A stretch of 24,262 nt of DNA, from positions 1 to 24,262 of IMG/VR virus record IMGVR_UViG_3300023444_000008, one strand, 5' to 3'. The translations under genes and the position numbers were made by a program. A model generated the notes under the pieces. That model was given only the letters and a program-made list of their open reading frames with translations, had not been told where the DNA came from and made no database searches. This document shows positions 8,471 through 20,252 of this stretch, in pieces (the stretch's first letter is position 1; every line of letters starts with the position of its first letter). The stretch comes from a virus.

Positions 8471-8493
8471 TGAAATCAACGGCGTGAAACTAT

Positions 8494-8515
8494 GGGCGGG
8501 GCTTGTCCCCGTCCC
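8494..8515 (+). promoter_or_regulatory. GC-rich hairpin after the capsid gene
   Basis: GGGCGGGG (8494-8501) pairs with CCCCGTCCC (8507-8515) around the loop CTTGT, with one bulged T. No T-run follows, so it does not look like an intrinsic terminator. It lies between the capsid stop and the AAGGAG of the next gene. It may protect the 3' end of the capsid message or reduce read-through. The pairing is seen; the role is inferred. Confidence 0.5.
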
Positions 8516-8531
8516 GTAAGGAGTGTATCGA

Positions 8532-9623: not shown

Positions 9624-11204
9624 ATGTCTGTAAAAAGTATCCTGGAGCAACTTCGAGCCAAGCAGGAGGATACCGGCGTTGCTATCGTCTTAGGAGAGAG
9701 CAACAACGGGGACAATACCCCGGAACCGGAGGACGCCATCCTGGACGCCGAATTGACTCCCGACATTCTGAAGGCTATGGAAGAGGCTGACGCCGCACCG
9801 CCTTCGGAAGAAGAACTCATGGAGATCATGGATGACTTCGACATCGGGCTTTATGACCTCATAGACCTGGCGAGTCTAGCCTATGCTCCTATGAGTGAAG
9901 AAGAGTTCGATGAGGCCCTTGCTAATTGGGGCGGGGAAGCCGACTTGAGCGAAGAGGAAGAGGATGACGCCGATGACGCCGGTGACGTCGAGACTCAGAC
10001 CGAGGACTCCGATGAGACCCTGGATGAAGCGAAGCGTGTAGGCCGTGGCGGTCGAAAGAAGAAGAAGAAGGACGCCCCAAAGAAAGACGATAAGAAGGCC
10101 AAGGCCGGTTCGGGGGCCAAAGCAGCCAAAGCAGCCAAGGCCGCCAAGAAGTCCGGCGGCGGCAAGTCCGGCGGCGGCAAGTCCGGCGGCGGTGGAGGCG
10201 GCGGGGGCGCGATGTTCAAGCCCGAGTACCGTGGAACCCACTACCGCGACAAGACCGGGAAAGCGCATCCCCGTAGAGACCCGAAGACCGGCGAAAAGGC
10301 GAAGACGGGATTCGACAAGTACTACAACCGGGACGCCTTCAACCAGGTTTTCGCTACCAACCTGTTCGCCAGGAAAGCAAAGCCCCCGAAGGAAATGCGA
10401 ACTCCCAGGGGTAACAGGATCAACCTGAAACACTACACCCCTTCCGGTTTTTGGGGATGTGTGAGGAAGATCATCAAGGGCGGCGTCATCAAGAAAGTGA
10501 AGAGGCCCGACAAGTACGGCACAGGCAAGGGAGGCAAGGTTTTTGCGGCCAGGGCCTTGTGTGCCATGATCGCATCTATGGGGCCGGGCAAGGTCAAGAG
10601 GCCCAAACCCATGATGAAGAAGTGGCGTGACACTTTCGCCAAGTGGCGTCAGAGCAAGTACAAAGGCCCCCATCCGTACAAAGGCTCCAAAGAGATGAAG
10701 AAGACCTGGCCCGGATTGAAGAAGGGCGGTTACACCGGAACCAAGTTCAAGGGACATTCCCCGTCCTATCAGGCCGCCGGAACGGGTGAACCGAACCCGG
10801 CTGACATCCTCATCGAAGGTCTGGCTCAGTACTTTCCCGAGGCCGAAGAGATCGAGAAGATTCTCGGAGTCATCGACATCTACATGGAAGGCCGCCTGTC
10901 GGAAGACGAGTTCGACGCCTACCTGGAGAGGAAGATGGAAGCGGCGGGTATCGAAGATGAAGAGACCGCCGAAGTCCTGGAGGCCATCAAGAGCCTTTCT
11001 TCCGAGATGGCTTTGATCGAGGACGGCGTGGAACTGGAACTCGAATCGGGACAAGCCCCCGATGATGAGGAAGACCCGGAGGATGAAGAGGAAGACCTGG
11101 AGGAAGAGGGAGTCACCGAAAAGACCAAGGAAGACCCCGAAGACTCCGAGGATGAAGACTCCGAGGAAGAAGAAGACGATATGGAGGATGAAGAGGAAGA
11201 CTGA
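9624..11204 (+). CDS. Charge-segregated structural protein, histone-H1-like linker, unknown function
   Basis: This protein of 526 residues matches no family I know. It has four zones. Residues 1-135 are very acidic. Residues 136-197 are a Lys/Ala/Gly linker with KKKKK, an AKAAKAAKAAKK run like histone H1 tails, and SGGGK repeats ending in poly-Gly. Residues 198 to about 385 are a strongly basic core rich in Lys, Arg, Trp and Tyr. Residues 390-526 start helical (ILGVIDIYMEGRLSEDEFDAYL) and end in an almost purely Asp/Glu tail. LDE135-A at the acidic-to-basic border fits the prohead protease rule. Codon use resembles that of the capsid gene, which suggests high expression. It lies between neck genes. 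An internal, DNA-contacting head protein with an acidic propeptide is a reasonable hypothesis; a neck or decoration protein is the alternative. Confidence 0.8.
   Translation: MSVKSILEQLRAKQEDTGVAIVLGESNNGDNTPEPEDAILDAELTPDILKAMEEADAAPPSEEELMEIMDDFDIGLYDLIDLASLAYAPMSEEEFDEALANWGGEADLSEEEEDDADDAGDVETQTEDSDETLDEAKRVGRGGRKKKKKDAPKKDDKKAKAGSGAKAAKAAKAAKKSGGGKSGGGKSGGGGGGGGAMFKPEYRGTHYRDKTGKAHPRRDPKTGEKAKTGFDKYYNRDAFNQVFATNLFARKAKPPKEMRTPRGNRINLKHYTPSGFWGCVRKIIKGGVIKKVKRPDKYGTGKGGKVFAARALCAMIASMGPGKVKRPKPMMKKWRDTFAKWRQSKYKGPHPYKGSKEMKKTWPGLKKGGYTGTKFKGHSPSYQAAGTGEPNPADILIEGLAQYFPEAEEIEKILGVIDIYMEGRLSEDEFDAYLERKMEAAGIEDEETAEVLEAIKSLSSEMALIEDGVELELESGQAPDDEEDPEDEEEDLEEEGVTEKTKEDPEDSEDEDSEEEEDDMEDEEED
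10149..10193 (+). repeat. 15-base tandem repeat encoding SGGGK
   Basis: Three copies of AAGTCCGGCGGCGGC (last base changed in the third) lie at 10149-10163, 10164-10178 and 10179-10193, directly before a poly-glycine codon run. They encode the flexible linker of the charge-segregated protein. The unit keeps the reading frame. Confidence 0.9.
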
Positions 11205-11671
11205 TGCCTCTGAAAATCTATCAACCTCAATACCCTCTGAACGCAGATATTACCTTTCTGGCCCGAGTCTGGAGAGAGTACTATCTGCGTTACCCTATTT
11301 TAACCTATCGGGTATTGCAGGATAACCCACTGTCCCATGACGAGGACTACCTAGACGCTGACCGGGAGGAAAGGCACTACGAGGATCACCAGATGAACCT
11401 CCGTATTGCTCTCGGTTCAGACAATGAGGAAATCAACTTGTCGAATGTGGGTATAGATAGGCCGAAGATCGTCATGTTCTACGCCTGCTACCCCTTTTGT
11501 GAAGACTTGGGGATTGAGCCAAAAATTGGGGATGTGATTCTTTTCGAGTATGATGAGCCTATAGAATACGAAGTCCGAACAGTAAGGAAACCAGTAGAGG
11601 CTACCTTCGCTCACTCGAACTACTGGTTTGAACGCGAACTAAAGGCAGAAAGGGCCGTACACGGAGAATGA
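11204..11671 (+). CDS. Putative neck / head-tail connector protein
   Basis: This protein of 155 residues starts with a TGATG overlap on the previous gene. The N-terminus (FLARVWREYYLRYPILTYRV) is aromatic, and the C-terminal half looks like a small beta barrel: PKIGDVILFEYDEPIEYEV followed by ANYWF-like NYWFERELKAERA. The GD-x-I plus YEV pattern is usual in small connector or stopper proteins, but I cannot assign a family. Its place between the gp13-like gene and the gp15-like gene is where T4 carries neck gene 14, so a neck role is inferred from context. No membrane segment or enzyme motif is visible. Confidence 0.7.
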   Translation: MPLKIYQPQYPLNADITFLARVWREYYLRYPILTYRVLQDNPLSHDEDYLDADREERHYEDHQMNLRIALGSDNEEINLSNVGIDRPKIVMFYACYPFCEDLGIEPKIGDVILFEYDEPIEYEVRTVRKPVEATFAHSNYWFERELKAERAVHGE

Positions 11672-15512: not shown

Positions 15513-15693
15513 GCAGTTATCGGACTTGCGAAAAGCACAGTTCTACTTGTCTTATTGGGCTAACATCCCTCCCTCCTGTACTAGCCAGATGAACCGAAAG
15601 GAACTGAACGGCTATGTTCAACTCTTGAATGAACAAAAGGAGAGGGAGAAGCGCGAACTAGACCGTGCCAGGAATCGAATGAAGAGAAGGTAA
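14739..15693 (+). CDS. Frameshifted long form of tail chaperone (GT-like), +1 shift near 15474-15480
   Basis: Reading in the +1 frame from 15466 gives 70 uninterrupted codons after TTTTTTC (15481-15690), stopping at TAA 15691-15693, three bases before the tape measure ATG. The translated sequence looks genuine: SKQLSDLRKAQFYLSYWANI, then MNRKELNGYVQLLNEQKERE and a basic end (MKRR). It has no ATG or GTG at its beginning; the first ATG falls mid-way. The overlap allowed for a shift runs from the +1-frame TGA at 15463 to the 0-frame TAA at 15510. A Phe tRNA on TTT (15477-15479) can slide forward to TTC (15478-15480). The fusion (14739-15479 plus 15481-15693) would be 317 residues. A -2 slip on the same run or at GGGGA (15493-15497) reaches the same frame. 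Confidence 0.7.
15474..15480 (+). other. Candidate programmed frameshift site TTTTTTC
   Basis: In the chaperone frame the bases read GAG TTT TTT CGT. Sliding the second Phe tRNA by +1 lets it pair with TTC, its better match, and places the ribosome in the open downstream frame. The run is the longest homopolymer in the permitted overlap of 15466-15509. Direction (+1 or -2) cannot be told from sequence. Confidence 0.55.
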
Positions 15694-15696
15694 ACA

Positions 15697-18441
15697 ATGG
15701 CAGACTACACGCAAAAGGCTATCAATTTCAACTTCAGCATGAATGATGCCGAGATGAGCAAGGGAGTAGATAAACTCGAATCCCAATGGAACAGCATGGA
15801 GAAGTCTGTCGGTAAAGCAGAAGACGGAATAGACAAAGTAGGCAAGACGATAAGGCAGACCGCCTCTTCCGGTGGTAAAGCCATACAGAAAACAGGGGCT
15901 GCTGTCGCTGGAGCCGCCGTCACGACAAACAAGGCAGTCCATAAACTAGGGAAAACGGGGACGGCAGTTGCCGCCAAGGTAGAGAGTATAGGGGATGACG
16001 CCTCATCTTCCTTTGACTCTGCAACGGAGGCAGTCGCCGCCTACGGAAGAGAACTTGACAAAGTGGAGGACGGTCTTGAGAAGACGGGCCAGGCCGCCAC
16101 AGTAGCCGGTAGGGGGATGGCTCTTGCCTTCGCTTCTGCCGTCGAAAGTATCCGGCAGACTAACATGAACCTCCGGGACATGGCGCAGCAAACCGGGGCT
16201 GTAGAGGCTGCCGAAAGTCTTCACACAAATCTACTTCAAGTAAACAGGACTCTAGGCTGGACAAAAGACCAGTTAGCAGCATTCCGGCGGGAAGTGACTC
16301 AGATACCTCAACCTTTGGTCGGGGCTATCGGGGTTACGGAGGTCGGTGAGGCAATAGAGGGCCTGGTAAATGCCGGGGTAAGGGCCAGGGAAGCCCTTCA
16401 AGCCTATGTTCCTGCCGTGGCTCTTATGGCGAGGGCTACCGGGACATCCGTTGACCAGATGGCCCAGGATGTCTACAGGTACAACAGCCAGTTTGGTCTC
16501 TCGATAGACCAGATTACCCGTATGCAGGGGACTATCCACAATCTAGCCAGGGAGAACGCCGTATCGTTTGAAGACATGCGTAGCAGCCTGTCAAGTTTCG
16601 CCAATGAGTTCGAGGTTGCTTTCAGAGGCATGTCAACGGAGGCCAGAGAAAGGGTGGTGACTTCATTTGCCGCTATGAGGGCCGCCTTTGCAGAGAACTG
16701 GTCAGACATGGCCCCTGTCATGGAGATGGCAGCCAAGGCTATGGTGGACATTACCTCGGAAGAGATGCAGAAAATGGTAGCCGCCTCCGGTATGGCCGCC
16801 CAGGACATCCAGCAACGGCTCCGAGAGGGCCGGATAGATGAGGTCATGAGGGCTATCATGCAGAGGGCCGGAACCTATGCAAACCAGGGGACTCAGGCCC
16901 TAAATGCGTGGGCCGAGACTACTGGAATTTCTTCTGCCGCCCTTTCCGCTATGTCGCGTAACCAGCAGAGCATAACCGGACGATTGGACAGATTCACCGC
17001 CGGGACGTACAGTGCCGCCGATGGGATGTCTCATTTCTCCGGTGTGGTTCGTAACTCTACCATCTGGTTCGACCAGTTGAAGACCAGAATTTCCTCTCTT
17101 GCTGCCAGGGATATACCGGGCCTTGGGACCAGTGTGGCCGATGTGGTGGCTGAGATGTCTGAAATAAACTGGATTGCGATGTGGGCCGGGTACACGGTTA
17201 TTAAGGGGCTTGCAACTTCGCTTTGGGGCCTTGTTGGGGCTATGGCCGGGGCCGGTGGCGCAATAGGGGCCATTGGTACGGCTATAATGGGCCTGGGGGC
17301 CAAGATAGGCGCGGTGGCTACCCTCATGTTAGGCCCTTGGGGTCTCATCATTGCCGCTATTGCCGCCGTGGTGGGAGGGGTGATATACCTTCTCCACAAG
17401 ACCGGGCAACTAGGGAAAGTTTGGGACGCCCTGAAGAACGCGATAATGTTTGCCCTCGAACCAATAATTGACACCGCGAAAGAACTATGGCAGACGATAA
17501 CTGACGCCTTCAGTTCCGGTGCGGAGGGCGGCATGGAGTGGATGAAGATAGGGAGGGCCCTCGGGAGTGTCTTTAGTTTCCTGTTCAAAATTGCCGGGTA
17601 TGCCTTGAGAGTTATGTTTCTCCGTCTTGCCCTTGCTCTGAAGATACTGAAACCTGTAATCAAGTTGCTTATCGGAGTAGGTAAACTGCTCTGGAAAGTA
17701 ATAGGCCCGTCGATAAACTGGATTGCCACCCTATTCACGGAGCCAAGGAAAGCCATAGAGCAGTTGATTTTGGGCCTAAATTCTATGGGCCTGTATCTGG
17801 AATCAATCGGGACTAAAATCGGAGAGTTTCTTCTTGATCCTCTCGGGGGTATCCAGGCAGCCTGGGAAGCCTTGTTTCCGTTCCTACAGGGTTTGATTTC
17901 AGGCTTTGTGGAGTGGGCAAACGCCGCTTTAGTGGGCTTCCTGGAAATGCTTGGATTGCAGAACGCCGAGCAAGTAATATCTGGAGTGTGGCAGCAGATT
18001 TACGCTCTGGTAACGGCTCCCATCGAGACCATGAAGAAACTGATAAATGAGAATATCATAGGCTCTCTGAACTCGATCATTACCTATGAACTGCCGCTTA
18101 TAGGCTCCCTGCAATCCGTGACCGGAGTTGGAACAATCCCGTTGCTGGCAGAGGGGGCCTACATAGATGAGCCGACATTGGCAATTATCGGTGAGGCCGG
18201 GCCAGAGTTTGTCTTACCGGAGGACAAACTGCCGGAGCCGACGATACAGCCGATCATGACTGTCAATACCGGGGGTGACTCTCCGGGGGGCGGCACTACT
18301 TCAGTGGTTGGAGTGGAGCGCCGGTTGGACGCCGTGGTAGCCCTACTCAGGCAGCAAATACAGATGGGCCAGAGAGTGAGCCGGAGTCCCCGGCCTGACC
18401 CGCTTCTGAATAGAATACTGACTTTTGGCGGGGAGTCCTAA
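15697..18441 (+). CDS. Tail tape measure protein
   Basis: This protein of 914 residues is the longest in the window and follows the chaperone pair. The N-terminal part is helical and Lys/Ala/Thr-rich. Residues about 110-450 are helical with MAQQTGAVEAAESLHTNL-type segments seen in phage minor tail proteins. Residues about 486-570 are hydrophobic, with Gly/Ala-rich stretches that could insert into a membrane (GPWGLIIAAIAAVVGGVIYL). Near the end is AEGAYIDEPTLAIIGEAGPE followed by FVLPE, the widespread end motif of tape measure proteins. Tape measures set tail length at about 0.15 nm per residue, which would suggest roughly 137 nm here. No peptidase or lysozyme motif was seen. AGAGAAGG lies before the start. 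Confidence 0.92.
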   Translation: MADYTQKAINFNFSMNDAEMSKGVDKLESQWNSMEKSVGKAEDGIDKVGKTIRQTASSGGKAIQKTGAAVAGAAVTTNKAVHKLGKTGTAVAAKVESIGDDASSSFDSATEAVAAYGRELDKVEDGLEKTGQAATVAGRGMALAFASAVESIRQTNMNLRDMAQQTGAVEAAESLHTNLLQVNRTLGWTKDQLAAFRREVTQIPQPLVGAIGVTEVGEAIEGLVNAGVRAREALQAYVPAVALMARATGTSVDQMAQDVYRYNSQFGLSIDQITRMQGTIHNLARENAVSFEDMRSSLSSFANEFEVAFRGMSTEARERVVTSFAAMRAAFAENWSDMAPVMEMAAKAMVDITSEEMQKMVAASGMAAQDIQQRLREGRIDEVMRAIMQRAGTYANQGTQALNAWAETTGISSAALSAMSRNQQSITGRLDRFTAGTYSAADGMSHFSGVVRNSTIWFDQLKTRISSLAARDIPGLGTSVADVVAEMSEINWIAMWAGYTVIKGLATSLWGLVGAMAGAGGAIGAIGTAIMGLGAKIGAVATLMLGPWGLIIAAIAAVVGGVIYLLHKTGQLGKVWDALKNAIMFALEPIIDTAKELWQTITDAFSSGAEGGMEWMKIGRALGSVFSFLFKIAGYALRVMFLRLALALKILKPVIKLLIGVGKLLWKVIGPSINWIATLFTEPRKAIEQLILGLNSMGLYLESIGTKIGEFLLDPLGGIQAAWEALFPFLQGLISGFVEWANAALVGFLEMLGLQNAEQVISGVWQQIYALVTAPIETMKKLINENIIGSLNSIITYELPLIGSLQSVTGVGTIPLLAEGAYIDEPTLAIIGEAGPEFVLPEDKLPEPTIQPIMTVNTGGDSPGGGTTSVVGVERRLDAVVALLRQQIQMGQRVSRSPRPDPLLNRILTFGGES

Positions 18442-18947
18442 TGGCTGTTCAAACCTACGACAAAGGTAAGATCATAAGCGTATCGAACCCGATAGACTTT
18501 ATCTACGTCCACTACATCCCGGAGGAACTAACCGAGGCTGTAGAGGCTGAATATGATGAGCAGGGAGATATTATAGGACGATCCTCTCCCTATGTCTACT
18601 ACAAATCGACCCAGGCCAGGACGTTCGAGTTCCCTCTCCACCTATACGCAGACAGTGACGCCGAAGAGGAAGTCCTGAAGAGAGTACGGTGGTTGCAGTC
18701 TTTTCAATACCCCGACTATTCGGGCCAGTTGATGAGGCCGCCGGGGATGCTCCGAATCCTGTTGGGTAGGAACTTTGTAAACCTCAAGGGAGTGATGAAG
18801 GGGTGTAGCGTGGCGTGGAAAGCCCCGTATGACTTACTCTCTGGAATACCTATGCAGGCTGAGATTTCGGTTACATTGCAAGAAGTTGTTGACGTTCCGT
18901 ATGACTACACACATTTTAAGCCTTCGGCCTTAAAGAGAGAACACTAG
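18441..18947 (+). CDS. Putative baseplate hub / tail-tube initiator protein
   Basis: This protein of 168 residues overlaps the tape measure stop as TAATG. It is beta-rich: YYKSTQARTFEFPLHLYADS, a helix EEEVLKRVRWLQSF, then PPGMLRILLGRNFVNLKGVM and IPMQAEISVTLQEVVD. The plan (strand pair, helix binding a ligand-like loop, GRNFVNLKG strand, closing strand VTLQEV) resembles small tube-like proteins that start the tube on the baseplate, such as gpU-like or PVC7-like subunits. Position between tape measure and hub genes supports this. I cannot name the exact family. The 123-base gap that follows is the only sizeable non-coding stretch in the window. Confidence 0.65.
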   Translation: MAVQTYDKGKIISVSNPIDFIYVHYIPEELTEAVEAEYDEQGDIIGRSSPYVYYKSTQARTFEFPLHLYADSDAEEEVLKRVRWLQSFQYPDYSGQLMRPPGMLRILLGRNFVNLKGVMKGCSVAWKAPYDLLSGIPMQAEISVTLQEVVDVPYDYTHFKPSALKREH

Positions 18948-18960
18948 AAAAACGCTCACA

Positions 18961-19051
18961 GATGGCCTGTAGCAGCCTGTAACTGTCCGGGGGTGGTTTT
19001 ACCCGATTCGGGGGTAGAAACGCTCCTGTAGGCTGTCTATGGGCCATTTTT
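18961..19051 (+). ncRNA. Structured intergenic element: long stem with inner hairpin and T-tract
   Basis: Bases 18962-18981 pair with 19027-19047. The segments are ATGGCC with GGCCAT (19042-19047), TGTAG with CTATG, CAGCCT with AGGCTG (19030-19035) and GTA with TGT. That is 20 pairs with four G-U wobbles and one bulged T at 19036. The enclosed 45 bases hold GGGT (18991-18994) pairing with ACCC (19001-19004), and CCG (18987-18989) pairing with CGG (19009-19011). The descending arm runs into TTTTT (19047-19051), as in intrinsic terminators, but the loop is much longer than usual. The octamer AAACGCTC occurs at 18950-18957 and 19018-19025. It could be an attenuator, an RNA-stability element or a small RNA. 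The class is unknown; the folding is read directly from the sequence. Confidence 0.5.
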
Positions 19052-19070
19052 GCGTATATGGGAGAACTAC

Positions 19071-20252
19071 ATGGCAGACGCAATTTGGGAAGAGACTTTC
19101 GGAGTTACCCCGAAGGCTTACACTAACGGTGAGGTATTCGGAGGCCAGAACCAACTTCAGGCCCGGTTTCTCGATCCTGGTGTGGCTACTCTCGGTGATC
19201 TATTCCCGGAGGGCCTGGAAATCCATGCGGGGGCCAATAACGTAATCCTCGACCCTCAACCCTGGAACTATTCGGCAGTGGTCGGGGTGGATGAAATTCT
19301 GAGTGTGGGTACAGACAGGTTTGTCATCGAGGTAGATTTCACTTTCTTCTCGGAGACTGTAACCGTTACCACAGACTACCTGTCATTGTTTTCCTTCGTA
19401 TCGTCTAATTTGCCGAAGGTTGTGGAAACATACCCCAATTTTGCCGGTGAACACTTCTTGTCCGTTCAAGTCGGTGAGTATGCCGGTGGCTATCTGGTCT
19501 ATATAATCCTGAAAGAGCAAAGTACGGGATTTGAGCAATGGTACAATGGTACTTCTATGTCATATTCGAGGGAGCCGGTTTCCGGGATTTTGTTGCTTCC
19601 ACATCGGAAGTACAGTCTTCATGTCATGAAGGACTTGGCACAGTACCGGGTTATCCTGTCCGATATAAACGCAGGAGCGCCCGGAACTGAACTTGTGAAT
19701 ATCACTTTTGCCCATGCTTCCTACCAATCCGGCCCTGGGTGGTGGTTTGTCGGGGACTTTTGGTCGGATACCTCCGAGGCTTTCTTCATGACCCTCCAGA
19801 GACTCTACGGAGAGAGGGGCCTGCCACCGTTACCGGAGCCTGACCCGGAGCCGACAGAAGACGATACGCTGGAGTTTTCCTTTCCTGACCCTCTTCCGGC
19901 CTTTACTAAGTTTGAGCAGAAGGTCAGGAGTAAAGAGTCTTCTTTCAGTCGGATGAACTTTGACTCTCACTACGATGACGGGACACACGTTTTTCTTCCG
20001 GCCTTTCGGGTTGTGGAAGTTCCAGAAGGCCCGTTTGACCAGTACTATGAACTAGGATCAGATGAAGAAGGCCGCCTTGATTTGGTCTCCTACAAGTTTT
20101 ACGGAACTACCCGGCTTTGGTGGGTGCTGGCTATGGCAAATCAGATCAAGGAGCCTTACAGAGTAGCGCCGGGGACGCAGATAAGAGTTCCTTCGATTGC
20201 GACTATCCACAACAACGTACTGAACAAGATAGGGAGCGTTTATGGCCGATAA
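19071..20252 (+). CDS. Baseplate wedge protein: lectin-like domain plus LysM/gp53-like end
   Basis: This protein of 393 residues was started at the ATG 19071, six bases after GGGAG, rather than the in-frame TTG at 19050. Residues about 20-245 look like a concanavalin/LamG-type beta sandwich (VIEVDFTFF, EHFLSVQVGEYAGGYLVYII, KYSLHVMKDLAQYRVILSDI). A Pro/Glu/Asp-rich linker follows. The C-terminal part has RLDLVSYKFYGTTRLWWVLA, then ANQIKEPYRVAPGTQIRVPS, a LysM-type pattern shared with T4 gp53 and other baseplate proteins that lock the wedge to the hub. A sugar-binding-type fold fused to this module is uncommon in the phages I know. Binding to host polysaccharide or to another baseplate part are both possible. 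It overlaps the hub gene by 11 bases. Confidence 0.75.
   Translation: MADAIWEETFGVTPKAYTNGEVFGGQNQLQARFLDPGVATLGDLFPEGLEIHAGANNVILDPQPWNYSAVVGVDEILSVGTDRFVIEVDFTFFSETVTVTTDYLSLFSFVSSNLPKVVETYPNFAGEHFLSVQVGEYAGGYLVYIILKEQSTGFEQWYNGTSMSYSREPVSGILLLPHRKYSLHVMKDLAQYRVILSDINAGAPGTELVNITFAHASYQSGPGWWFVGDFWSDTSEAFFMTLQRLYGERGLPPLPEPDPEPTEDDTLEFSFPDPLPAFTKFEQKVRSKESSFSRMNFDSHYDDGTHVFLPAFRVVEVPEGPFDQYYELGSDEEGRLDLVSYKFYGTTRLWWVLAMANQIKEPYRVAPGTQIRVPSIATIHNNVLNKIGSVYGR

Follow-up and report, generated by a model that had tools for sequence, protein, structure and literature searches.

The only sizeable non-coding gap in the window (the whole 24,262-nt stretch of DNA analyzed, an IMG/VR virus record) folds, as + strand RNA, into an unusually large and stable hairpin whose GC-rich base adjoins a run of five T residues. 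We favor, at about even confidence, the interpretation that this gap encodes a cis-acting, leaky, terminator-type hairpin in the late mRNA. Most likely, it is a familiar type of element, a leaky stop signal or a marker of the mRNA end, whose size is out of the ordinary; it would work like an intrinsic terminator and is not to be filed as a canonical one.

Gene neighborhood and hairpin architecture

The genes for major head protein, sheath, hub, tape measure and baseplate in the record are structural genes of the T4-like myovirus kind; among phage records, its sheath and head proteins best match those of Bacillus phage SP-15 and Listeria phage LIS04 (31-37% identity). A preliminary description, made from the letters alone, had singled out the gap at 18948-19070 as the only one of appreciable size. 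This holds: the next candidates are 15513-15696, which contains a 55-codon ORF, and 8471-8522, which is only 52 nt long. An ORF check revealed no convincing coding sequence in the gap, and searches for tRNA and tmRNA were negative. The 55-codon ORF (15526-15693) is flanked by the hub and tape-measure genes, a place occupied in SP-15 by a small hypothetical gene, and perhaps encodes a tape-measure chaperone. A short GC-rich hairpin without a T-run is found at 8491-8518, right behind the major head protein gene; its z-score is only -1.1.

The hairpin starts 12 nt past the upstream stop codon and comprises 84-90 nt and 35 base pairs, closed by an apical loop of 7 nt (Table 1). The same description had drawn a 20-pair stem with one bulge that encloses a second hairpin and ends in five T residues; the fold reproduces that stem with arm coordinates agreeing within 2 nt, and the T-run is present, the first three T being paired in the minimum free energy (MFE) structure. 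The octamer AAACGCTC, which had been thought to add internal structure beside each arm, does occur twice (18950-18957 and 19018-19025), but as a direct repeat whose copies are not mutually paired; one copy contributes to the outer helix of 4 pairs, the second to the upper stem.

Table 1. Coordinates of the gap, its neighboring genes and the parts of the hairpin
Feature	Position	Strand	Basis
CIS_tube gene (contractile injection system tube-like), 5' neighbor of gap	18441..18947	+	Pfam PF19266 above cut-off; weak tblastn match, Streptococcus phage GXN1
Hairpin-bearing non-coding gap, 123 nt	18948..19070	+	no plausible ORF; folding energy and z-score (see text)
Optional outer helix ACGC/GCGU, 18952-18955 with 19052-19055	18952..19055	+	MFE; probability ~0.6 in context
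Lower stem, 5' arm, 20 pairs	18960..18979	+	fold; sampled pair probabilities 0.95-1.0 in flanking context
One-sided bulge, 8 nt, UAACUGUC	18980..18987	+	fold
Upper hairpin: 8 pairs (18988-18995/19021-19028), 2x2 internal loop, 7 pairs (18998-19004/19012-19018), 7-nt loop (19005-19011)	18988..19028	+	fold and sampling
Lower stem, 3' arm, bulged U at 19036	19029..19049	+	fold; paired segments 19029-19035 and 19037-19049
Five-T run adjoining GC-rich stem base (GGGCCA)	19047..19051	+	sequence
GGGAG, Shine-Dalgarno-like, serving the gp53-like gene, outside hairpin	19060..19064	+	sequence
gp53-like baseplate wedge gene, 3' neighbor of gap	19071..20252	+	PHROG 7145, E 2e-15; tblastn; residues ~279-385 conserved

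Stability, strand specificity and relatives

The + strand of the gap has an MFE of -58.0 kcal/mol (z -6.88), and none of 200 dinucleotide shuffles folded as well. When the + strand of the record was scanned in 100-nt windows, the hairpin region had the lowest energy, and among the sampled windows only it and one other had z < -5. The other most unusual + strand fold (11215-11335, z -4.5 to -5.9) falls within the first part of the coding region 11204-11671. When 60 mechanically defined gaps from eleven sources were folded, the gap at 18948-19070 ranked in the top three by significance. Folded as single-stranded DNA, it stands out less (z -3.6), and read on the - strand the inverted repeat reaches -32.6 kcal/mol (z -1.67), little better than shuffles. 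The difference between the strands arises because the helix contains 8 G-U pairs and no A-C mismatch, an outcome with a chance of ~0.004 if both kinds were equally likely; as the folding program itself favors G-U, this excess is supportive and not conclusive. The element looks like one that acts as + strand RNA, the G-U/A-C count and the - strand z-score pointing to selection on that strand.

The junction was compared with those of SP-15, LIS04, Streptococcus phage GXN1 and ~45 distinct environmental loci, a set that represents fewer independent lineages, since near-duplicates account for several of the loci and the upstream gene is often a larger protein. In the relatives, the gp53-like gene encodes ~86-136 amino acids, and almost always the gap to the preceding gene is -31 to +16 nt; the exceptions are three with 29-45 nt and locus L016, whose 314 nt contain a PAAR-like stretch. 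The gp53-like protein of the window is 393 amino acids long from its ATG, and residues 1-280 form an N-terminal extension absent from all relatives examined. This extension of ~280 residues (19071-19910) connects via a proline-rich linker. Searches of Pfam, PHROGs, the PDB and the records of the nearest relatives yielded no match to it, and an AlphaFold model of the gp53-like protein was uninformative (mean pLDDT 33). Its GC content and codon preference are similar to those of neighboring genes, with no sign of recent foreign origin. Because they are missing in the relatives examined, the gap, hairpin and extension are, as judged from this comparison, features of this lineage, and were possibly acquired together. 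In seven loci from bacterial genomes, Chloroflexi among them, whose sheath is similar (L107, L110, L111, L112, L114, L117 and L120), the gp53-like match falls within proteins of 205-252 amino acids, which are perhaps fusions with a CIS_tube-type domain.

Searches for homologous RNA were negative. Rfam covariance models gave no match at the gathering score or up to E 10, no DNA similarity to the hairpin was detected in phage records, and two exact patterns and one gapped pattern found no copy in viral_contigs. Single-protein searches returned no close relative for CIS_tube or sheath, and only distant ones for gp53; profile searches retrieved sheath relatives at <=39% identity, too distant to keep the hairpin RNA.

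Proposed termination and alternative explanations

The lower stem has the base GGCC/GGGCC, after which come one A and the five T. Across the whole window, the + strand has just 10 start sites for TTTTT, and the chance that one falls within 3 offsets of the stem base is ~0.001. When successive 3' truncations were folded, the apex formed first and the base closed at 19045-19050, as the T-run was reached. Moreover, the same gene cluster in relatives contains strong intergenic hairpins, several of which are short-stem terminators, and intrinsic terminators, annotated or evident, are located behind the tail tube gene of SP-15 and at the same place in LIS04. On these grounds, together with the folding energy, the + strand bias and a plan similar to that of the T7 Tphi terminator, we infer a leaky terminator. 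Of the three roles suggested in the preliminary description (terminator, attenuator and small RNA), termination has thus fared best, given also the position 12 nt past a stop codon in a dense operon.

RNA polymerase would leave the CIS_tube gene while the apical part of the hairpin folds and then zips down, so that the GC-rich base would close with the polymerase on the UUUUU run. A fraction of transcripts would end at this run, their 3' ends capped by the hairpin; the remainder would continue into the gp53-like gene and the baseplate genes beyond it, with a possible effect on their dosage. The gp53-like gene would be translated from its own Shine-Dalgarno sequence.

Several features count against a terminator. 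Needed genes lie downstream, and a scan limited to sigma-70-like promoters found no such site in the gap. The U-run is short (5) and interrupted by GCG. The stem-loop is oversized, and its distance from the stop codon is small; the ribosome can repress terminators sited very close to a stop codon (PMC4824070). A d'Aubenton Carafa-style score was borderline, giving +10.6, +0.2, -18.9 and -24.3 for four stem ends; it ranged from +0.2 to +10.6 with the stem closed at 19046-19047, which speaks for termination, and was negative at the two other ends. A consensus terminator scan of the region returned 10 sites, versus 10.0 in shuffles, and its match at the hairpin was a small alternative hairpin only. 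TransTermHP admits stem-loops of up to 59 nt with loops of 3-13 nt (PMC12207403). The 7-nt loop is within these limits, but because the stem-loop exceeds 59 nt, the element is not a canonical intrinsic terminator. Nonetheless, it shares with canonical ones a stable GC-rich stem beyond chance and a U-rich tract directly 3' of the stem.

The strongest alternative, which we consider fairly unlikely, is processing by RNase III: the host enzyme would cut the long helix and split the CIS_tube message from that of gp53, leaving hairpin-protected ends as in T7. The near-continuous 20-pair helix, with a one-sided bulge and 15 more pairs, exceeds the 22-nt minimum target used for this enzyme (PMC5371410), and T7 R1.1, a 49-nt stem in phage pre-mRNA, provides a precedent (PMC8708148). 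However, the U-run against the stem base is left unexplained by cleavage. The T7 controls, terminators and gaps with RNase III sites, gave hairpins of <=25 pairs with z from +1.3 to -4.4, and the element of the window is larger than all of them, including the RNase III gaps (z -4.4 or weaker). T7 RNase III sites, too, lie in short intergenic gaps. Termination and processing could both be true together.

It is less probable still that the hairpin is only an mRNA stabilizer or translational insulator, blocking 3' exonucleases or separating translation of the two genes with neither termination nor cutting. Its start right behind the upstream stop codon, with the downstream Shine-Dalgarno sequence outside it, would suit such a role, as would the touching or overlapping of the genes at this junction in many relatives, but the U-run would not be needed.

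Two further ideas are more improbable again, and about equally so. One is an insertion scar: the hairpin would have come in with the gp53 extension and would serve no purpose today. None of the relatives examined has either; however, a decaying inverted repeat should yield A-C as often as G-U, against the 8 to 0 seen (folding itself favors G-U), and the extension resembles its neighbors in composition and codon preference. The other is an undescribed structured RNA of ~100 nt, freed by termination or processing, that would act in trans or as a switch setting the amount of the extended gp53-like protein. The small RNA proposed earlier, if taken as an independent species that is set free from the gap and acts in trans, is the least likely: a compact stable structure with a terminal U-run resembles the 3' end of an sRNA, but the gap shows no sigma-70-like promoter site and no Rfam match to E 10, and the pattern searches found no copy elsewhere in viral_contigs.

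The suggestion of an attenuator has not been borne out, as neither a leader peptide nor a competing antiterminator could be found. A perfect 11-nt inverted repeat, TAAGCCTTCGG/CCGAAGGCTTA (18917-18927 and 19110-19120), straddles the hairpin as well as the beginning of the gp53-like gene, with a pairing probability of 0.92 in context. Its placement is suggestive, though the window has about as many such repeats as chance predicts (2 independent versus 1.5 expected), and attenuation through this long-range pairing was rejected.

If the hairpin terminates or is processed, this uncultured T4-like virus adjusts the output of its baseplate genes at a junction kept closed in its relatives, and this tuning coincides with an additional domain of the gp53-like wedge protein. 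Oversized terminator-type hairpins would then be missed by standard terminator finders.

Comparison with known systems

The nearest counterparts are the T7 Tphi and SP-15 terminators, which, like the element of the window, are intergenic + strand hairpins with a GC-rich base followed by a U-run, in a late cluster with needed genes downstream. Tphi, folded as a control, has 20 pairs, a U-run and flanking pairs and lies inside the late operon. The differences are of size and place: 35 pairs and an 8-nt bulge in 84-90 nt, compared with ~20 pairs in Tphi and 8-15 in SP-15 and LIS04; a U-run shorter than that of Tphi; and a junction other than those used in SP-15 and LIS04. Like T7 RNase III sites (R1.1 and others), the element is a long hairpin with imperfect pairing, set in a short gap between genes of a polycistronic phage mRNA; it differs in being larger and in having a U-run at its end. 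The gene 26-25 junction of T4-even phages likewise has mRNA structure between baseplate genes, which, to go by the titles of the works cited in PMC3014915, serves translation initiation at the ribosome-binding site; in the window, unlike at that junction as so described, the ribosome-binding site is outside the stem.
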